A stretch of 64,000 bases of DNA, taken from positions 1 to 64,000 of the forward strand of contig JAIOPJ010000048.1 of assembly GCA_021413975.1 (NCBI GenBank). Reading direction: 5' to 3'. The notes under the pieces were generated by a model that worked only from the letters and a program-made list of their open reading frames with translations, had not been told where the DNA came from and searched no databases. Positions 13,012 through 21,770 of the stretch are shown here, piece after piece. The DNA is from Gemmatimonadota bacterium (lineage in GTDB: Bacteria > Gemmatimonadota > Gemmatimonadetes > Gemmatimonadales > Gemmatimonadaceae). Positions within the stretch are counted from its first letter, which is position 1, and each line of letters starts with the position of its first letter. The translations under genes and the position numbers were made by a program.

Positions 13012-14196
13012 GTGCTCCGCCTGCTGACCAACGCCCGCGTCTTCGCCCCGGAGCCCCTCGGCCTCCGGCACCTGCTCGTCGCGGGCGGCAGGATCATCTG
13101 GATCGGCGACGCCCTCCCCGACCTTCCCTCGGCGCTCGGTGCCGAGGTGGTGGACCTCGGCGGGCGGCGCGTGATCCCCGGCGTCATCGACGCGCATGTG
13201 CACCTCACCGGCGGTGGTGGCGAGGCCGGACCGGAGACGAAGGTCCCGCCGCTTCCCCTCTCGCGGTTCACGAGCGGCGGCGTCACGAGCGTGGTCGCGC
13301 TCCTCGGCACCGACGACGCCACCCGCCATCCGCGCGAACTCGTCACCGCGGTGCATGCGCTGCGCAACGAAGGGCTCTCGGCCTGGTGCTGGACCGCCGG
13401 CTATCACGTCCCGCCGGTCACGATCACCGGCACCGTGCGGGGCGACCTCGCGGCGATCGAATGCATCATCGGTGCCAAGACGGCGATCAGCGATCACCGC
13501 TCGAGCCAGCCCACGCGCGACGAACTGCTCCGGCTCGCGAGCGAGGTGCATGTGGGCGGACTGATGACCGGCAAGGCGGGCATCGTGCACCTGCACGTGG
13601 GCGACGGGGCACGCGGCCTCGCGCCCATCCGCGAGGCGCTCGCGGGTTCCGAGCTGCCGGCGCGTGTGTTCAATCCCACGCACGTCAATCGGAGGAAGGC
13701 GCTCTTCGACGAGGCCATCGCCCTCGCACGGCAGGGGTGCCACGTGGACATCACGGCCTTCCCGGTCGGCGAGGGCGAGGACGCATGGTCCGCGGAGCAC
13801 GCGCTCGCGCGTTACCTCGACTCGGGCGCGCCGCCGGAGCGCGTCACCATCAGTTCCGACGGTGGCGGCTGCCTCCCGGAGTTCGACGCGAACGGGCGCG
13901 TGACGCGCATGGGCGTGGGCGACCCCGGGGATCTGGCGCGCACGCTCGCCGCGCTGCTCGCCGCGGGCCAACCGCTCGAACGCGTGCTCCCGGCGTTCAC
14001 GAGCAACGTTGCCCGTCTCCTGCGACTCGCCGGGAAGGGGCATATTGTGACCGGGGCCGATGCGGACCTCGTGGTACTCGACGCGAACGGAGGGATCCGG
14101 GACGTGATGGCGAACGGTGCATGGCATGTGAGGGAGGGCGGCGCGGTGCGGCGCGGCACGTTCGAGGGCGTCGCGCCGCGCGGAGCGAACGCATGA
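13012..14196 (+). CDS. iadA: Isoaspartyl dipeptidase
   Basis: The 394-aa amidohydrolase has the binuclear-zinc set of IadA: DAHVHLTGG, the bridging Lys in AIECIIGAKTAISDHRSSQ, HLHVGDG, NPTHVNR and the final Asp in SSDGGG. IadA hydrolyses beta-aspartyl dipeptides. In cyanophycin metabolism it splits beta-Asp-Arg into free aspartate and arginine, and the next gene is cyanophycinase, so that is its probable job here. The start GTG is set by the promoter geometry. The stop overlaps the cphB ATG by 3 bp, coupling release and hydrolysis of the dipeptide. Confidence 0.93.
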   Translation: MLRLLTNARVFAPEPLGLRHLLVAGGRIIWIGDALPDLPSALGAEVVDLGGRRVIPGVIDAHVHLTGGGGEAGPETKVPPLPLSRFTSGGVTSVVALLGTDDATRHPRELVTAVHALRNEGLSAWCWTAGYHVPPVTITGTVRGDLAAIECIIGAKTAISDHRSSQPTRDELLRLASEVHVGGLMTGKAGIVHLHVGDGARGLAPIREALAGSELPARVFNPTHVNRRKALFDEAIALARQGCHVDITAFPVGEGEDAWSAEHALARYLDSGAPPERVTISSDGGGCLPEFDANGRVTRMGVGDPGDLARTLAALLAAGQPLERVLPAFTSNVARLLRLAGKGHIVTGADADLVVLDANGGIRDVMANGAWHVREGGAVRRGTFEGVAPRGANA

Positions 14197-15035
14197 GCCC
14201 CGCCAAGGTCCCGGAGGGCTCGACCCGCGGCTGGATCATCCCGATCGGCGGCGGCGAGCAGAAGGAGGACAACCCCGTCATCCTCGACCGCTTCGTGCAG
14301 CTCTGCGGCGGGCGTGATGCGCACCTCATGGTGATCCCCACCGCCTCGAAGATGGAGGACACGGGCGACCGCTATCGCAAGCTCTTCAAGGGGCTCGGCG
14401 CGGGCGAGGTGTCGGTGCTCGACTTCGACACGCGGCGCGACGCCTACGAGAAGGGCCGCATCGCCGAACTCAGCGGGTGCGACGGCGTCTTCCTGACCGG
14501 CGGCAATCAGTTGCGGCTCTCCACCCTCCTCGGCGGCACCGACATCGCGCGCACGCTCCGCGAACGCAATGCGCATGGCGTGCACATCGCCGGCACGAGC
14601 GCCGGAGCGAGCTTCCTCTCCGAGCACATGATCGCGTTCGGCGAGGACAACGCGGCGCCGCATGCCGGCTCGGTCACGCTCGCGCCCGGCCTGGGGCTCA
14701 CCAACCGCGTGGTGATCGACCAACACTTCACGCAGCGCAACCGGCTGGGGCGGCTCATCACGGCGCTGGCCTTCAATCCCTTCCTGATCGGCCTGGGTCT
14801 CGACGAGGACACGGCCGCGTTCATCGGCCCCGACCTCACGGTCGAGGTGGAGGGGAGCGGCACGCTCACCGTGGTCGACGCCGAACGGCTCAAGTTCTCC
14901 TCGATGGACCAGGCGGGGCCCAACGACCCCGTCTCGATGCTCGGGATCACCATGCACGTCCTGATCCGCGGGGCGACGTTCAACCTCCACACGCGGGACG
15001 CCTCGGCGGGCACCCTCGCGGTGGGCAAGAGCTAG
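14193..15035 (+). CDS. cphB: Cyanophycinase
   Basis: The 280-aa protein is a peptidase-family-S51 cyanophycinase. It has IPIGGGEQKEDNP at the N-terminus, the nucleophile Ser136 in GTSAGAS (134-140), FLTGGNQLRLSTLLGGT, and RVVIDQHFTQRNRLGRL containing the conserved His/Arg. It is an exo-type serine hydrolase that removes beta-Asp-Arg dipeptides from the end of cyanophycin. It has no signal peptide, so it acts on cytoplasmic granules. It sits between iadA (overlap) and cphA (14-bp gap); the order degradation-degradation-synthesis in one unit implies synthesis and turnover are co-expressed. Confidence 0.95.
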   Translation: MSPAKVPEGSTRGWIIPIGGGEQKEDNPVILDRFVQLCGGRDAHLMVIPTASKMEDTGDRYRKLFKGLGAGEVSVLDFDTRRDAYEKGRIAELSGCDGVFLTGGNQLRLSTLLGGTDIARTLRERNAHGVHIAGTSAGASFLSEHMIAFGEDNAAPHAGSVTLAPGLGLTNRVVIDQHFTQRNRLGRLITALAFNPFLIGLGLDEDTAAFIGPDLTVEVEGSGTLTVVDAERLKFSSMDQAGPNDPVSMLGITMHVLIRGATFNLHTRDASAGTLAVGKS

Positions 15036-15049
15036 GGGCACCTTAGGAC

Positions 15050-17845
15050 ATGCGGATACTCGAACGCTCGGTCTACGTCGGCCCCTCGCTCTACGCGCAC
15101 TTCCCGGTCATCCGCCTCGAGTTCGACCTCGGTGCGCTCGAGGAGTGGCCGACCACGCGGCTCGGCGGTGCGTTCGTCGATGGCCTGCTCGCCGCGCTTC
15201 CGGGGCTGCAGGAGCACGGCTGCTCGTACGGCGAGGCCGGCGGCTTCGTCCGCCGCATGACCGAGGACGAGGGCACCTGGCTCGGCCATGTGCTCGAGCA
15301 TGTCGCGATCGAGCTGCAGAACGTGGCGGGCATCCGGGTCACGTTCGGCAAGACGCGCGGCACCGACAGGCCGGGCGTCTACGACGTGGTCTTCGAGTAC
15401 GAGCACAAGGACGAGGGGCTCGAGGCCGCGGAGCTCGCGATCCGGCTCATCGACTCGCTCCTCCCGGAGTCGCTGCGCACCCGCAAGGAGTCCGGGGCGT
15501 TCGACTTCGCGCGGGAGCGCGACACGTTCATCCGCTTCGCACAGCGCCGCGCGCTCGGACCGAGCACCGCATCGATCGTGCAGGCCGCCGAGGCGCGTGA
15601 CATCCCCTGGATCCGCCTCAACAGCCAGTCGCTCATCCAGCTGGGCTACGGCCGCTTCCAGCAGCGCATCCAGGCGACCGTCACCGGCCGCACCTCGCAC
15701 ATCGCGGTGGAACTCGCGAGCGACAAGGAGGAGACGAACAAGATCCTCTCCATGATCGGCCTCCCGGTGCCCAAGCAGGAGCTGGTGCAGAGCGCCGACG
15801 CGGCCGCGCGCGCGGCTCGGCGGATCGGCTACCCCGTGGTCGTGAAGCCCTACAACGGCAACCACGGACGCGCGGTCGCGATCCACCTCAACACCGAGGA
15901 GGCGGTGCGCACCGCCTTCACCGTGGCGCAGGAGGTCTCGCGCTCCGTGCTCGTGGAGAGCTTCATCACCGGCGACGATCATCGGCTGCTCGTCGTGAAC
16001 GGCGAGCTCGTCGCGGCCACGCGCCGCACCCCGGGCCACGTGGTCGGCGACGGCACGCGCACCATCGCGGAGCTCATCGGGATCGTGAATCAGGACCCGC
16101 GCCGCGGCATCGGGCATGAGAAGGTCCTCACCCAGCTCGACCTCGACTCGCAAGCCATGCGGTTGCTCGAGAAGAAGGGCTACACGGCGGAGACCGTGCC
16201 GCCGGCGGGCGAGATCGTCTACCTGCGCTCCACGGCCAACCTCTCCACCGGCGGCACGGCGACCGACGTGACCGACGTGATCCACCCCGACAACGCCGAG
16301 ATGGCGGTCCGCGCCATCAAGGCGATCGGACTCGACGTGGGCGGCGTGGACTTCCTCTGCGACGACATCACGCAGTCCTACCGCAAGGCTGGCGGCGCGA
16401 TCTGCGAGGTGAACGCGGCCCCGGGCTTCCGCATGCACAGTGCGCCGAGCGAGGGCCGGCCGCGCGACGTGGCCACGCCGGTGATCGACATGCTCTTCCC
16501 CGTGGGCACGCCGACCACGGTGCCGATCGCCGCCGTCACCGGGACCAACGGCAAGACGACCACCGCGCGCATGCTCGCGCACATCTGCAAGATGGGCGGC
16601 CTCACGCCCGGGCTCACCACGACCGACGGCGTGTACATCGACGGCCAGCGCACCGTCGAGGGGGACATGACCGGCCCGGTCGCGACGCGCACGGTGCTGA
16701 GCGATCCGTCGATCGACGTCGCGGTGCTCGAGATCGCGCGCGGGGGACTGCTGCGCGCCGGCATGGGCACGCGCTACGTGAATGTGGGCGCGGTGCTCAA
16801 CGTCCGCTCCGACCACCTCGGCATGAAGGGCGTCGACACGCTCGAGCACCTGGCCGAGGTCAAGCGCGTGGTGGTCGAGGTCGCACGCGACGCCGCGGTG
16901 CTCAACGCCGACGATCCGCTCTGCCTCAAGATGGCGTCGTACACCGACGCCAAGAGCCTCTGCTACGTGACGATGGATCCCGCGAACGCCCTCGTGCGCG
17001 AGCACATCCGCGCCGGCGGCCGGGCGGTCTCGCTCGAGACCGGCGTGAACGGGCAGATGATCACGATCTACGACAAGGGCGCGCACATCCCGCTCCTGTG
17101 GACGCACCTGATCCCGGCGACCATGGAAGGCCGCGCGCTGCACAACGTGAACAACGCCATGTTCGCGGCGGCGATGGCCTTCTCCCTCGGGATGAAGCTC
17201 GAGACGATCCGTCAGGGCCTCCGCACCTTCGACACCACGTTCTTCCAGGCCCCCGGCCGCACGAACGTCTTCAACGAGCATCCGTTCAAGGTCATCCTCG
17301 ACTACGGCCACAATGCGCACGCCGTCGAGGCCATGACGCAGCTCGCCGGACGGCTCGACGTGACCGGCCGGCGGATCGTCGTGATCGCCGGGCCGGGCGA
17401 CCGCCGCGACGAGGACATCCGTGACATCGCGCGCACCGTGGCCGGGCATTTCGACCACTACATCTGCCGGCGAGACGACGCGCTGCGCGGCCGCGACGGC
17501 GACGAGGTGCCACGCCTCATCGCGAAGACGCTCGCGGCCGAGGGCGTGCCCGAGTCGAGCATCAGCATCATCGCCGAGGAGCAGGCGGCGGTCGAGGCCG
17601 CGCTCCGCATGGGACGCAGCGGCGACCTGCTCCTGATCTTCGGCGACGAGATCGTGCGCAGCTGGAAGCAGATCATCCACTTCCAGGCCGACGGCGCGCT
17701 GCGTCCGGTGACGGCCGAGTACGCCGTTCCCAGGCCGGCAGCGGTCCTCGCTCCCAGTGCGGCCGCCGAGGCCGCACCGCACGACCTCACCACCCTCGTG
17801 CGTGATGAACGCGGCGTCCGGCTCGCGCGCGAGAGCGACGACTGA
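15050..17845 (+). CDS. cphA: Cyanophycin synthetase
   Basis: The 931-aa protein has the three-domain layout of CphA1: the N domain (1 to about 165, SVYVGPSLYAHFPVIRLEFD), the ATP-grasp domain (about 170-480, with RIGYPVVVKPYNGNHGRAV and ICEVNAAPGFRMH), and the Mur-ligase-like domain (about 490-931, P-loop GTNGKTTT near 497-504, DGVYIDGQ, VLEIARGGLLRAGMG, DYGHNAHAVEAM). The ATP-grasp module adds aspartate to the backbone and the Mur module adds arginine to its side chain. The length is normal for the family. The product is an insoluble nitrogen-storage polymer. Its stop is followed within 40 bases by a second Mur-type gene. Confidence 0.97.
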   Translation: MRILERSVYVGPSLYAHFPVIRLEFDLGALEEWPTTRLGGAFVDGLLAALPGLQEHGCSYGEAGGFVRRMTEDEGTWLGHVLEHVAIELQNVAGIRVTFGKTRGTDRPGVYDVVFEYEHKDEGLEAAELAIRLIDSLLPESLRTRKESGAFDFARERDTFIRFAQRRALGPSTASIVQAAEARDIPWIRLNSQSLIQLGYGRFQQRIQATVTGRTSHIAVELASDKEETNKILSMIGLPVPKQELVQSADAAARAARRIGYPVVVKPYNGNHGRAVAIHLNTEEAVRTAFTVAQEVSRSVLVESFITGDDHRLLVVNGELVAATRRTPGHVVGDGTRTIAELIGIVNQDPRRGIGHEKVLTQLDLDSQAMRLLEKKGYTAETVPPAGEIVYLRSTANLSTGGTATDVTDVIHPDNAEMAVRAIKAIGLDVGGVDFLCDDITQSYRKAGGAICEVNAAPGFRMHSAPSEGRPRDVATPVIDMLFPVGTPTTVPIAAVTGTNGKTTTARMLAHICKMGGLTPGLTTTDGVYIDGQRTVEGDMTGPVATRTVLSDPSIDVAVLEIARGGLLRAGMGTRYVNVGAVLNVRSDHLGMKGVDTLEHLAEVKRVVVEVARDAAVLNADDPLCLKMASYTDAKSLCYVTMDPANALVREHIRAGGRAVSLETGVNGQMITIYDKGAHIPLLWTHLIPATMEGRALHNVNNAMFAAAMAFSLGMKLETIRQGLRTFDTTFFQAPGRTNVFNEHPFKVILDYGHNAHAVEAMTQLAGRLDVTGRRIVVIAGPGDRRDEDIRDIARTVAGHFDHYICRRDDALRGRDGDEVPRLIAKTLAAEGVPESSISIIAEEQAAVEAALRMGRSGDLLLIFGDEIVRSWKQIIHFQADGALRPVTAEYAVPRPAAVLAPSAAAEAAPHDLTTLVRDERGVRLARESDD

Positions 17846-17883: not shown

Positions 17884-19509
17884 GTGGACTCGCGCCGGCT
17901 CTTCGGCCCGAGTCTCTGGCTCGACGCGCCGGGCGTCGTGCTCGATGCCGCGCTCGACCCCGATCGCGCCGTCGACGAGCTCGCGGCCTGGCGCATCAGG
18001 GCGCAACGCATGACCGCGGCGCTCGGTTGGCGATCCACGTGCACGCTCCGCCGGCGCGGTGACCGGGCGGCACTGGCGCTCACCGCGCCGGTCGACGCCC
18101 TCATGACGGCGACCCTCGTGAACGAGTGGGCCTGGGCGGGCGCGGCGACCGATGGCGAGGCGCGTGCCGCGGTCACCATGGACCCCGCCGAGGAGCGCCT
18201 CCCTCCCGACGAGGCCGCCGCGCTCGCGCGACTGCGGGAGCTCCTGGCATCCGAGGCGAATCCCCGGTTGATCGCTCTGATGCGCGAGGCCGCGGTCCAT
18301 GGCGTGCCCGTCCTCCTCGACGAGGAGCAGATCACCGCGGGCTACGGCGTTCGCAGTCGCACCTGGCCCGCACGCGAACTGCCACCCGCGACGTCGATCG
18401 ACTGGAACGCGCTCGGGACGATCCCGGTCGCACTCGTCACCGGCTGCAACGGCAAGACGACCACCGTGCGGCTCGTCGCCTCGATGCTCGCGCGCTCGGG
18501 CCACGTCGTCGGACTCTGCTGCAGCGACGGGGTCTACATCGCCGGAGAGCAGGTGAAGCGTGGCGACTGGAGCGGCCCGGCAGGCGCGCGCCAGGTGCTG
18601 AGCGATCCGCGGGTCACGGCTGCCGTGATCGAGACCGCGCGCGGGGGCATGCTGCGGCGCGGTCTGGTGATCCCGAGCGCGACCGCGGCGATCGTGACGA
18701 ACATCGCCGAGGATCACTTCGGCGGCTACGGGATCGAGTCGCTGGCGGATCTCGCCGAGGTGAAGCTCGTGGTCGCCCGTGCACTCGATGGCGGCGGCAC
18801 GCTCGTGCTCAACGCCGATGATGTCTCGCTGCGGGTCGCCGCCGAGTCCCGCACCGGTCGCACGGAGTGGTTCAGCGCGTTCGCGCCCGGCGATGCGGTC
18901 CCTCCCGTCGAGGAGATGCCGATCACGCTCGGGGGCTCAGCCTGGCACAACGTGGCGAATGCCGTGGGCGCCGCGCACGTCGCACGCGCGCTCGGCGTGC
19001 ACCGCGACGCCATCGACGCGACGCTCCGCAGCTTCGGCCGCGACAACACCGACAACCCCGGCCGCCTGGAGCGGTTCGACGTCGGCGGCGTCCGTGTCTG
19101 GATCGACTACGCGCACAATCCCCACGGTCTCGCCCAGCTCCTCGGCGCGGCGACACGCCATCGCGGCACGGGCCGCCTGGGGTTCCTGCTCGGCCAGGCC
19201 GGCGACCGTGACGACGACGCGATCCGCGCGCTGGCACGCTCGGCGTGGGAAGCACGGCCGGACCGGATCGTGCTGAAGGACCTCGACGGGCACCTGCGGG
19301 GGCGCGAACGCGGCGACGTCCCGGCGATCCTCCGCGCCGCCCTCGTGGCGGCCGGTGCGCCGGAGACGCTGATCGAGATGTCCCTCGGTGAGACCGATGG
19401 CGTGGAGCGCCTGCTCGAGTGGGCCCGGCCCGGCGACCTGCTCGTGCTGCCCGTGCACGCGCTCGACGCGCGTGAACGGGCGATCCAGCTCGTTCAGAAC
19501 CGGACCTGA
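17884..19509 (+). CDS. CphA paralogue with N-domain and Mur-ligase domain but no ATP-grasp core
   Basis: The 541-aa protein is clearly related to the neighbouring CphA: P-loop GCNGKTTT (about 187-194), CCSDGVYIAGEQ, VLSDPRVTAAVIETARGGM, IVTNIAEDHFG and WIDYAHNPHGLAQLLG. Before the P-loop only about 175 residues remain. They keep an RLFGPSLW opening like the CphA N-domain, and a segment IALMREAAVHGVPVLLDEE ending in GYGVRS that parallels SIVQAAEARDIPWIRLNSQ of CphA; the ATP-grasp core is missing. By CphA logic it could add Arg (or Lys) to a side chain but not extend the backbone. The start is uncertain: the GTG at 17884 has no Shine-Dalgarno, and CTG at 17842, overlapping the cphA stop, is possible. 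It ends inside the convergent TonB gene. Confidence 0.8.
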   Translation: MDSRRLFGPSLWLDAPGVVLDAALDPDRAVDELAAWRIRAQRMTAALGWRSTCTLRRRGDRAALALTAPVDALMTATLVNEWAWAGAATDGEARAAVTMDPAEERLPPDEAAALARLRELLASEANPRLIALMREAAVHGVPVLLDEEQITAGYGVRSRTWPARELPPATSIDWNALGTIPVALVTGCNGKTTTVRLVASMLARSGHVVGLCCSDGVYIAGEQVKRGDWSGPAGARQVLSDPRVTAAVIETARGGMLRRGLVIPSATAAIVTNIAEDHFGGYGIESLADLAEVKLVVARALDGGGTLVLNADDVSLRVAAESRTGRTEWFSAFAPGDAVPPVEEMPITLGGSAWHNVANAVGAAHVARALGVHRDAIDATLRSFGRDNTDNPGRLERFDVGGVRVWIDYAHNPHGLAQLLGAATRHRGTGRLGFLLGQAGDRDDDAIRALARSAWEARPDRIVLKDLDGHLRGRERGDVPAILRAALVAAGAPETLIEMSLGETDGVERLLEWARPGDLLVLPVHALDARERAIQLVQNRT

Positions 19510-21770
19510 TACACCAGCGAGATGTTGCGCCCGGGGTTCGGCGCGAAGCTCTTGATCCGGCTCGCTGAATCGAAGTAGCGCACGTCGCCCACGTTGTCTC
19601 CGCGCAGCGTCAACCCGTGCAGGACGTTCCCCACGACCCACTGCGTCCCCGCGCTCAGGTTCAGCAGCGTGTAGGCCTCGGTCGCCACGTCCACGCTGCC
19701 GCCGGTCACCCGGTCCTGTGCGAACGCGTGCCGCACGTCTCCGGCGAGCGAGAACCGACCGCGCTCCCAGCGCAGCCCGCCGCCGACGCGCGCGGGCGGC
19801 ATGAACGGCAACGCACCCCCTGCGTCGAACTCGCCGCGCACCAGGTCGCCGCTGACGCTCGCGACCACCGAGGGGCCGAGCCGGGTCTCCAACATGCCCT
19901 CGATGCCGGTCAACCGTGCGTCGGCCTGCGCGAAGCGATTGAGCGGCACGAGGTCACCGTCCACCAACGTGTCGCCGACGATGTTCGGCGTGACGTAGTC
20001 GGCGATCCGGTTCGAATACGCCGAGAACTGTGCCGTCACCCGCGACGTGCGCGCGCGAACGATCACTTCCGCCCCCGCACTCGTCTCGGCCTGCAGGGAC
20101 GCGTTGCCGATGTCGTAGGTGCCGGCGGCGGCGTGGAAGGCATTGGAGTAGAGCTCCTCGACCGTCGGCGCACGGAATGCGCGCGCGACCGACCCGCTCA
20201 CGCTGAGGACCTTCCCCAGCGGCACGCTGATGCCGAGCGACCCGGAGGCCTTGCTGAAGTCGCTCGTGCGTCCGGCGCCGAACTTCGGCTCCCCCGTCCT
20301 CGAGGCGATGGAGTAGTCGTCCCACCGCGCCCCGAACTGGAGCTGCGCCTCGCCTTCGTGATCGGCGTCGTCGTCACCGGTGTCGCGGTGTAAGGGCAAC
20401 TCCTGATAGACGAACGCGCCGAGCCCGCTCGAGTTGGCGGCCGGCGTGAGGGCCTCCTCGCCGGTCGCCGCGTATTGCTTGAACAGCCCCTGCAGGCCGA
20501 GCGCGCCTTTGAGGCGCCCGAACGCCGTCGTCGCCTGCGCATTCAGCGTCTGCGTGCGGAGCTGGAAGTTGGTGCCGATCGCGCCGTCGGACTCGATCTC
20601 GTCGTGCGTGTAGTGCTGCACCGTCGTCTCGATGCGCAGGTACGGCAGCGCCGCACCCGGGAGCTGGATGCCGCTGCGCGCGCTCGCGGCGGCGCGGCGC
20701 CCGTCGATCCGGATTCCCGCCTCGGGGTCTCCCGGCGCCGAGGGGATGCCGTAGTCGAAGTCATATGCCTTCACGGCGAGCCCCGCATTCGCACGCTCGC
20801 CCACGTACCCGTAGCCGACGGCGGCGTTGATCGCGCGGGAGTCGGTCCCGTCGAGCGCGGTCGCACCGCCGGTGCGGAGCGCGCCCATCTCCCGCCAGCC
20901 GCCACGCACCGTCAACGCGCCGCGCGCGCCGACGCCGGTCGTGATCGCCGCGCTCAATGCGCCACCGGGGGTCACCGACTCGCTCTGCGAGCCGACGTTG
21001 CCCTCGAAGTGCGTCGGGACCGACGTCGGGATGTCGTTCGAGACGACATTCACCACGCCGCCGAGCGCATTGTTGCCGTAGAGCAGCGAGGCCGGTCCCC
21101 GCACCACTTCGATGCGCTGGGCCGCCAGCGGGTCGACGGAGACCGTGTGATCCCCGGCCGCCGAGGCCAGGTCGCCGGAGCGTTCGCCGTCCTGGAGGAC
21201 GAGGATCCGGTCCCCGGTCAGGCCGCGGATCACCGGCATCGTGGCCGCGGGACCATTGAAGCGCTGGCTCACGCCCGGTTCCTGTGCGAGCGTCGACGCG
21301 ACCGATGACCCGAGCGATCGCGAGAGTGCGCGGCCCGAGAGCTCCACCGCCGCCTGCGTGAGGCGATCGGTCTCGGTGCCCGTGGGCGAGGCGCTCACGA
21401 TGACGGAGTTGAGCCGCAGTGGCGTGGGGACGAGCGCGATCCGCACCCGGACGTCCTGCCCGTCCGCGAGGACCCGCACCACGCGGTGCCCCGGGGCGTA
21501 GCCGATGAGCGTGACGCTCAGGTGATACTCGCCTGCGGGGAGGCCGCGCAGGACGAACTCGCCCTGGGCGTTGGTGGTAGTGGCGCGTGACACCTCGGCG
21601 ACGATCACGTTGGCGTTGGCGAGCGGGGCGCCGGCCGAGTCGACGACCGTGCCGATCACGGCGGGTGAGTTGAGGTCGCTCGGCGCGGCGAGGACGCCGT
21701 TCGGAAGAGCGAGCGTGAGAAGCAGCGCCCACAGCGGGGCGCGGCGCAACGACTTGACAGTGTTGTGCAT
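19494..21770 (-). CDS. TonB-dependent outer-membrane receptor with carboxypeptidase-regulatory-like N domain
   Basis: The 758-aa protein has a signal peptide (1-28) and then a beta-sandwich CarboxypepD_reg-like domain (about 35-115, GTVVDSAGAPLANANVIV...GEFVLRGLPAGEYHLSV). A plug follows with LNSVIVSASPTGT, PVIRGLTGDRILVLQDGER and VEVVRGPASLLYGNNALGGVVN, and then a 22-strand barrel ending in aromatic F. One extracellular loop near residue 460 is His/Asp/Glu-rich (HRDTGDDDADHEGE), as seen in zinc receptors such as ZnuD. A metal substrate is therefore plausible but not shown. Its 3' end overlaps the convergent cphA-like gene by 16 bp. A small His/Cys protein is encoded 128 bp upstream on the same strand. 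Confidence 0.92.
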   Translation of the reverse strand: MHNTVKSLRRAPLWALLLTLALPNGVLAAPSDLNSPAVIGTVVDSAGAPLANANVIVAEVSRATTTNAQGEFVLRGLPAGEYHLSVTLIGYAPGHRVVRVLADGQDVRVRIALVPTPLRLNSVIVSASPTGTETDRLTQAAVELSGRALSRSLGSSVASTLAQEPGVSQRFNGPAATMPVIRGLTGDRILVLQDGERSGDLASAAGDHTVSVDPLAAQRIEVVRGPASLLYGNNALGGVVNVVSNDIPTSVPTHFEGNVGSQSESVTPGGALSAAITTGVGARGALTVRGGWREMGALRTGGATALDGTDSRAINAAVGYGYVGERANAGLAVKAYDFDYGIPSAPGDPEAGIRIDGRRAAASARSGIQLPGAALPYLRIETTVQHYTHDEIESDGAIGTNFQLRTQTLNAQATTAFGRLKGALGLQGLFKQYAATGEEALTPAANSSGLGAFVYQELPLHRDTGDDDADHEGEAQLQFGARWDDYSIASRTGEPKFGAGRTSDFSKASGSLGISVPLGKVLSVSGSVARAFRAPTVEELYSNAFHAAAGTYDIGNASLQAETSAGAEVIVRARTSRVTAQFSAYSNRIADYVTPNIVGDTLVDGDLVPLNRFAQADARLTGIEGMLETRLGPSVVASVSGDLVRGEFDAGGALPFMPPARVGGGLRWERGRFSLAGDVRHAFAQDRVTGGSVDVATEAYTLLNLSAGTQWVVGNVLHGLTLRGDNVGDVRYFDSASRIKSFAPNPGRNISLVYQVRF

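Follow-up and report, generated by a model that had tools for sequence, protein, structure and literature searches.

Can a protein that resembles cyanophycin synthetase at both ends, and lacks the ATP-grasp domain between them, still serve as an enzyme of the cyanophycin pathway, and what would it contribute beside a complete synthetase encoded next to it? The question is raised by a stretch of 64,000 nucleotides (the whole of which is called the window here) from contig JAIOPJ010000048.1 of a Gemmatimonadota bacterium, in which the gene of a protein referred to as N-Mur follows the cyanophycin synthetase gene cphA1. In PMC9427784 and PMC9262961, CphA1 is described as a three-domain enzyme (N, G or ATP-grasp, and M or Mur) with two ligase sites and, in most cases, a hydrolytic site in the N domain. 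Judged by sequence and predicted structure, N-Mur is a complete Mur ligase half preceded by a CphA1-like N-terminal domain, with the ATP-grasp domain absent, and it is no isolated case of reduction but belongs to a widespread, conserved family with members in Gemmatimonadota, Gammaproteobacteria and Neomarinimicrobiota. That it works as a stand-alone ATP-dependent amino-acid ligase, acting in trans with the CphA1 encoded upstream and taking cyanophycin or its building blocks as substrate, is a reading suggested by its sequence and models, and one that we hold to be evenly balanced between right and wrong.

Domain make-up and active site of N-Mur

Pfam recognises two Mur domains in N-Mur, Mur_ligase_M at residues 185-321 (53.8 bits, cutoff 24) and Mur_ligase_C at residues 393-522 (45.4 bits, cutoff 28.4), and gives no match to ATP-grasp or to the PF18921 N domain at E ≤ 1; in the neighbouring CphA1, the N domain, several ATP-grasp matches and both Mur domains are found. 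With NCBIfam, N-Mur remains below the cutoffs both of TIGR02068 (306 bits, cutoff 850) and of MurE (82 bits at best, equivalog cutoff 476). CphA1 residues 205-462 (258 residues, most of the ATP-grasp domain) have no counterpart in the alignment, and smaller pieces are missing as well: residues 66-86 (21 residues around the N-domain active site), 141-151 (11 residues before the linker) and 644-676 (33 residues of the Mur core), the linker being also gone in three members of the family (L016, L017 and L025). The conserved D-S-R-R-x-x-G-P of the family opens at residue 2 of the window protein. Of 61 members, 46 match the start-motif pattern, and in these the Mur P-loop lies 145-189 residues away from it, against at least 465 residues (median 488) between the opening G-P and the P-loop in the CphA proteins measured. 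The original prediction had described an N-domain opening, a segment leading into ATP-grasp and a Mur domain, from which an ATP-grasp core of about 300 residues was gone; the alignment and the structural models bear this out, with a missing core of about 260 residues. A hidden ATP-grasp domain in the N-terminal 175 residues was looked for and is ruled out by Pfam, the P-loop spacing, the alignment gap and both models, and N-Mur cannot extend a backbone in the manner of the CphA1 ATP-grasp domain. HxxEH, the active-site motif of the N domain, is absent from all 61 N-Mur proteins, and this loss, like the spread of the family, goes beyond what had been described from the single window.

Two AlphaFold2 models, one built from 13 rows including CphA1 and the other from seven N-Mur rows alone, reached a mean predicted local distance difference test (pLDDT) of 89.0 and 89.3, respectively, with a predicted template-modelling score (pTM) of 0.88. 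In Foldseek, the best match of both was TeCphA1 (7wae_A), with a template-modelling (TM) score by query length of 0.82 and 0.81, MurE reaching about 0.53 (E 6.9e-18 and 2.4e-18), and both models were closer to CphA1 than to any plain Mur ligase among the 50 matches listed. Because the Mur part makes up about two thirds of the chain, the value obtained against CphA1 requires the N domain to occupy its CphA1 place; in the models, the N-terminal part and its seat on the Mur domain are CphA1-like. A search of a viral fold library gave a single match at E ≤ 0.001, with a TM by query length of 0.19.

Does the Mur half retain the residues of a working ligase? TeCphA1 residue positions were transferred to N-Mur through the alignment, and 59 N-Mur rows were compared with 59 rows of the CphA1 group that includes the window enzyme (group 1, defined below). 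The ATP- and Mg-binding residues of TeCphA1, K499, T500, T522, E558, R731 and H748 (PMC9427784), correspond to K191, T192, S214, E250, R394 and H411 of the window N-Mur; K191, E250, R394 and H411 are constant in 59/59 N-Mur rows, while position 192 alternates between T (50 rows) and S (9 rows), and position 214 likewise between T (46 rows) and S (13 rows). Equally constant are K294, R442 and the pair D277/H278, the SuCphA1 equivalent of which (D585/H586) inactivates the M domain when doubly mutated (PMC9262961). The R-G-R motif of the lid is common to N-Mur and the CphA M domain. K294 is presumably the catalytic Lys. By sequence, the P-loop, Mg ligands, Lys and lid Arg and His of the Mur superfamily are all kept, and the catalytic residues, on which the original prediction had asked for an alignment, are not lost. 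Group-1 CphA1s hold the same catalytic residues (at the R394 position, 52 of the 59 rows have R and the other 7 have K), and since their M domains are intact in this respect, N-Mur is no substitute for a dead domain.

Other positions have changed. R259 is constant in N-Mur, where group-1 CphA1s have A (76%) or S (22%); position 282 is aromatic in 91% of N-Mur rows versus K/R in 90% of group-1 CphA1s, and position 299 is R/K in 83% versus E in 93%. This last position is aligned with E607 of SuCphA1, an M-domain residue that contacts the cyanophycin bound by the N domain (PMC9262961). Conversely, three residues present in 100% of group-1 CphA1s are mostly lost: R786 (D, S, G and others in N-Mur), D789 (mixed, with D in 17%) and D809 (M, L or I in 83%), the latter aligning with the Asp of the DNPR motif in L033, a MurE-like protein. 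In MurE, the DNPR motif helps choose the amino acid. With near-invariant group-1 positions changed in this way, it is unsafe to transfer the Arg specificity of CphA1 to N-Mur. An addition of Arg or Lys, for which the original prediction had proposed to look, stays hypothetical.

A family tied to one group of CphA1

How far does the pairing of N-Mur with CphA1 extend? Three samples of genomes, whose phylum and class labels are inferred, were searched: 298 of the phylum of the window (Gemmatimonadota), 369 of the class (Gammaproteobacteria) to which the Lysobacteraceae metagenome-assembled genome L007 belongs, and 149 of the phylum represented by the Neomarinimicrobiota metagenome-assembled genome L008. 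The best 4, 3 and 9 first-look candidates per genome were scored in these samples, respectively, with E limits of 1e-20, 1e-80 and 1e-80; the listed regions with CphA and N-Mur were all fetched except G060:C219, L007 and L008 themselves coming from a related-locus search. A CphA was labelled group 1 if BLAST scored it above 800 bits against the CphA1 of the window; L077, whose sequence is cut off, was assigned to this group by hand. The census leaves aside two partial CphA pieces (G060:C219, and G287:C85, or L211, which lies where its contig ends), the N-Mur genes of G247, G212, G042 and G714, which are cut by a contig end or show no cphA1, related-locus and plasmid loci other than L007 and L008, and genomes that appeared in one further search only.

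Within this scope, N-Mur lies directly downstream of cphA1 and on the same strand in 56/58 group-1 loci (41/43 in Gemmatimonadota, 8/8 in Gammaproteobacteria, 7/7 in Neomarinimicrobiota) versus 0/42 group-2 loci (30, 9 and 3 in the same order), for 38 of which the fetched stretch continued for 900 nt or more downstream; Fisher's test gives p = 3e-26, a value to be read with the non-independence of related genomes and the few candidates scored per genome in mind. The survey for N-Mur genes next to cphA that the original prediction had suggested thus uncovered a family. Wherever both genes are present (60 loci, one genome being counted twice, as L004 and L079), N-Mur follows cphA1 in the same orientation, and cphB is found upstream on the same strand, within the fetched stretch, in 54 of them; the largest other cluster of neighbours in the fetched flanks comprises 6 N-Mur loci. 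No recurrent candidate for an ATP-grasp domain supplied by a split gene beside N-Mur appeared in the 14 neighbour clusters listed, the domains of the neighbours not having been searched. The order cyanophycinase-cphA-N-Mur also occurs on completely sequenced plasmids of Ruegeria sp. THAF33 (N-Mur WP_152460471.1), Shinella zoogloeoides ATCC 19623 (N-Mur WP_160788060.1) and Roseateles sp. XES5, on which PLSDB annotates N-Mur as a "Mur ligase family protein" and nothing more.

In a Mur-domain tree of 104 rows (thinned from 152 at 78% identity), 53 N-Mur rows stand on one side of a branch, apart from all CphA rows, with a Shimodaira-Hasegawa-like approximate likelihood ratio test (SH-aLRT) value of 89; in a smaller tree that includes the solved CphA1s, 27 N-Mur rows group together (SH-aLRT 100), AbCphA1 and TmCphA1 falling with group 1, and SuCphA1 and TeCphA1 with group 2. 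In the larger tree, which is thinned and rooted on one Mur ligase with a long branch, L033 (a further four candidate outgroups had no P-loop match and were dropped), N-Mur may be the sister of CphA as a whole or may have originated inside it. In a mirror-tree comparison of 58 loci, N-Mur and CphA1 evolve in a correlated way (r = 0.857, with 0/1000 permutations as high), N-Mur changing about 2.2 times faster than its CphA1, and ratios of nonsynonymous to synonymous substitution rates (dN/dS) of 0.08-0.38 among the 25 closest N-Mur pairs listed indicate purifying selection.

In the window itself, iadA, cphB, cphA1 and the N-Mur gene follow each other on the same strand (Table 1) with intergenic gaps of at most 38 nt, the largest being that between the cphA1 stop and the N-Mur start. 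The coupling to a complete set for synthesis and degradation, on which the original prediction had insisted, is confirmed by the three upstream genes, which all score above their NCBIfam cutoffs. A search of the whole genome with the N-Mur protein returned itself and its CphA1 neighbour, with no further match at E ≤ 0.001, and a promoter and terminator scan of the locus gave no result. At the other end of the locus, a 758-residue frame on the opposite strand (19494-21770) runs towards N-Mur and shares the last 16 nt of its gene; by eye, no family search having been made, it may be a TonB-dependent outer-membrane receptor, and related frames, forming one cluster, adjoin N-Mur in L096, L113, L114 and the window.

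Table 1. Genes of the cyanophycin locus and parts of N-Mur, in window positions
Feature	Position	Strand	Description
iadA, isoaspartyl dipeptidase	13012..14196	+	TIGR01975 above cutoff; overlaps cphB start by 4 nt
cphB, cyanophycinase	14193..15035	+	TIGR02069 above cutoff
cphA1	15050..17845	+	complete cyanophycin synthetase (N-G-M) of 931 aa; belongs to group 1; keeps HxxEH; TIGR02068 above cutoff
N-Mur gene	17884..19509	+	541 aa; GTG start
N-terminal domain	17884..18258	+	residues 1-125; CphA1-N-like fold in models, without HxxEH active-site segment
Linker	18259..18414	+	residues 126-177; first part aligned to CphA1 segment preceding ATP-grasp (MAFFT)
Mur ligase core and lid	18415..19458	+	residues 178-525; Pfam, column analysis
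Mur P-loop GCNGKTT	18442..18462	+	residues 187-193
D277-H278	18712..18717	+	equivalent of SuCphA1 D585-H586; 59/59 N-Mur rows

Proposed function and its alternatives

What reaction would such a protein catalyse? As a ligase acting in trans, N-Mur would hold cyanophycin or a fragment of it between its N and Mur domains, phosphorylate a carboxylate on the held substrate with ATP, as other Mur ligases do, and let the amine of an amino acid attack the activated carboxylate, giving an amide or isopeptide bond. In a weaker step of this scheme, it might add a different amino acid, or use the chain end or the free alpha-carboxylate of an attached Arg, which would be likelier than a repeat of the Arg addition because the M domain of the partner is intact and the presumed substrate-side residues differ. 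The intact Mur residues point to the ligase chemistry, and the operon, the coevolution and the N-domain fold point to the polymer as substrate; the change of amino acid or carboxylate, suggested by the altered residues, is the step of which we are least sure. N-Mur may in this manner alter cyanophycin, and it is conceivable, although we would rather bet against it, that the cyanophycin of group-1 operons is not plain multi-Arg-poly-Asp, N-Mur installing a further or different residue, which could replace Arg or be attached to its alpha-carboxylate or to the end of the chain. Two other hints at specificity were set aside: a convergent lid Tyr in independently reduced N-Mur proteins, the same motif being present in the full-length group-2 CphA L135, and lysine as substrate, at which saccharopine and aldehyde dehydrogenase genes found upstream in a single locus, that of Ruegeria THAF33, had hinted.

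Several points weigh against this reading. The link between N-Mur and cyanophycin consists of operon structure, coevolution and homology, and the N domain is weakly recognisable by sequence, hhalign aligning it with CphA N over 29 columns (E 0.0074, probability 5%). K191 is constant by construction, and the conservation of the P-loop is partly so, because the rows were picked by a P-loop pattern (the N-Mur frame L187, which does not match it, was dropped). In group-2 CphA1s, R is found in 21% at position 570, D in only 55% at position 809, and position 610 is mixed, so that R786 (86% in group 2) and D789 (97%) are the sole changed positions named above that hold across both CphA groups; because group 2 varies in this way, and includes the Su and Te enzymes, the residue changes alone are no proof of a new specificity. 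Part of them may be drift, given the 2.2-fold faster evolution of N-Mur. Finally, CphA1 can exist without an adjacent N-Mur, as in G084, where a group-1 cphA1 and N-Mur are on different contigs, and in G227, whose group-1-like cphA1 has no adjacent N-Mur and branches outside the paired clade.

Could N-Mur be a primer or dipeptide synthetase instead? Its acceptor would then be the beta-carboxylate of either free Asp or a very short peptide, to which it would attach an amino acid, probably Arg, and so provide beta-Asp-X starters for CphA1 or re-make the dipeptides released by CphB, which we regard as unlikely while granting it serious attention. The minimal primer of CphA1 is (beta-Asp-Arg)-Asp (PMC9262961), and N-Mur mirrors CphA2, in which ATP-grasp is retained and the Mur P-loop and lid are lost (PMC9427784). 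The HxxEH site in the N domain of SuCphA1 is, however, itself a primer-making endo-cyanophycinase that confers primer independence, the pattern Cx19HxxEH occurring in 83% of CphA1s (PMC9262961). AbCphA1 (Acinetobacter) and TmCphA1 (Tatumella) fall with group 1 yet have no HxxEH; in the group-1 CphA1 frames with a readable N domain it is kept in 62/62 (a count with two loci without N-Mur and one genome twice), so that a primase is not obviously needed. The constant extra Arg, R259, would suit a free alpha-carboxylate if it lay near the acceptor site, where a comparison with MurE would place it. The iadA and cphB products of the same operon would nevertheless counter the product of such a synthetase, and dipeptide synthesis needs no polymer-binding N domain.

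A shade less probable is a second Arg-adding unit, performing the same reaction as the M domain of CphA1 in order to fill bare Asp residues or to speed up the Arg step. It would agree with the CphA M domain being the nearest Mur relative of N-Mur, as the TIGR02068 and MurE scores indicate, and with the catalytic residues and lid motif common to both, but the M domain of the partner is intact at the same positions, and the group-1-invariant R786, D789 and D809 are mostly lost in N-Mur. We give still less credence to a non-catalytic or regulatory subunit, which would form hetero-oligomers with CphA1 or a granule coat, its Mur half only binding nucleotide or polymer. The tight coupling and correlated evolution are compatible with such a role, other partial CphA copies in operons (N-domain-only proteins, and the paralogues without a Mur P-loop labelled CphA-prime after work on Ralstonia) could be structural partners, and PAP11, a MurE-like, non-catalytic protein of the plastid RNA polymerase, is among the matches. 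Yet E250 (a Mg ligand), the Asp-His pair, the Lys and the lid residues are identical in 59/59 rows, which is unexpected for a pseudoenzyme. The idea of a decaying, functionless cphA1 duplicate, for which the split N-Mur of G042 might speak, can be dismissed in view of the dN/dS values and the strict synteny of a monophyletic family in three phyla.

In G042, the N-Mur gene (L205:1893-3312, on G042:C150) lies in two overlapping frames, likely through decay or an assembly error, and no cphA1 turned up in either of the searches that covered this genome; a broken N-Mur together with a missing cphA1 is, for this one case, what would be expected if N-Mur were useless alone.

Cyanophycin biosynthesis is described as a one-enzyme process, carried out by CphA1, or by CphA2 for recycled dipeptides. 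If N-Mur does install a further or different residue in cyanophycin, a further biosynthetic enzyme and an unrecognised polymer variant would be widespread in Gemmatimonadota, Proteobacteria and Neomarinimicrobiota. In three phyla, almost every sampled member of one CphA1 group is accompanied by a second ligase gene for which no role is described in the literature searched, and the pathway is probably incomplete there as drawn. Changes of side chains or chain ends by N-Mur would have a bearing on polymer solubility, granule turnover and designed polymers.

Partial CphA copies and known systems

Other partial copies of CphA were observed as well. Frames encoding the N domain only (356-528 residues, with an intact C...HxxEH) lie near cphA and cyanophycinase in 14/30 Gemmatimonadota group-2 cphA loci (L117, L121, L122, L123, L125, L126, L128, L129, L130, L131, L132, L195, L198 and L202; for example L195:1896-2966), PF18921 being found in the one such frame scanned, and their product is possibly a free-standing primer-making endo-cyanophycinase. 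A second CphA-like gene (frames of 674-777 residues) with no Mur P-loop match is present in 5/9 gammaproteobacterial group-2 loci (L175, L176, L178, L179 and L180), and N and ATP-grasp domains are recognised in that of L176, the one scanned. L045:5518-7386, on the Legionella adelaidensis plasmid NZ_LR134428.1, encodes a protein of 622 residues (WP_058462805.1) with an N domain (HVIEH intact) and a Mur domain, and no ATP-grasp; it adjoins cyanophycinase and isoaspartyl peptidase, no cphA match was found on this 164-kb plasmid, and by its sequence it looks like an independent loss of ATP-grasp. L116:3359-5263 (G025:C4, the same gene as L027) also has N and Mur domains, the former by alignment only, and no ATP-grasp; it falls among group-2 CphA in the tree, and its genome has a full group-2 cphA on another contig. 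L044:4699-7215, on a Deinococcus taeanensis plasmid, encodes an 838-residue "Mur ligase family protein"; its ATP-grasp matches are all weak, and it may be a CphA in which this domain has degenerated. The occurrence of several different partial copies in operons (N only, N-Mur, CphA-prime) points to a division of labour.

How does N-Mur stand beside what is known? No description of it was found in the open-access papers searched (most subscription papers lying outside them), nor in the excerpts of PMC10206079, PMC10687191, PMC11915815 and PMC8560796, which agrees with the original prediction that no characterised enzyme with this domain set was known, and N-Mur is apparently an undescribed component of a well-known pathway. 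To CphA1 it is related by a Mur half that is 46% and 36% identical, in two stretches, to that of its neighbour, by the fold of the N domain and its placement on the Mur domain in the models, and by the linker that precedes ATP-grasp; it differs by the absence of ATP-grasp and HxxEH, a score below the TIGR02068 cutoff, a separate clade, and altered lid and presumed acceptor-side residues. With MurE it shares the Mur fold and the catalytic residues, but it scores far below the MurE cutoffs, and the N-terminal part is not common to both. The CphA-prime-type paralogues resemble N-Mur in being a second CphA-like gene adjoining cphA, in gammaproteobacterial group 2, yet none of the five loci shows a Mur P-loop in them, and the single one scanned has N and ATP-grasp domains and no Mur domain call. 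The Legionella protein WP_058462805.1 and that of L116 have the same combination of N and Mur domains without ATP-grasp, but because they stand outside the N-Mur clade, they are likely independent reductions. The closest parallel in kind is CphA2, the cyanobacterial enzyme that keeps the G site and polymerises beta-Asp-Arg (PMC9427784, PMC10206079): it is also a reduced CphA, with an N domain that has no HxxEH (PMC9262961), but whereas CphA2 has no Mur P-loop and lid and works with the other site (PMC9427784, PMC10206079), N-Mur is the reverse.

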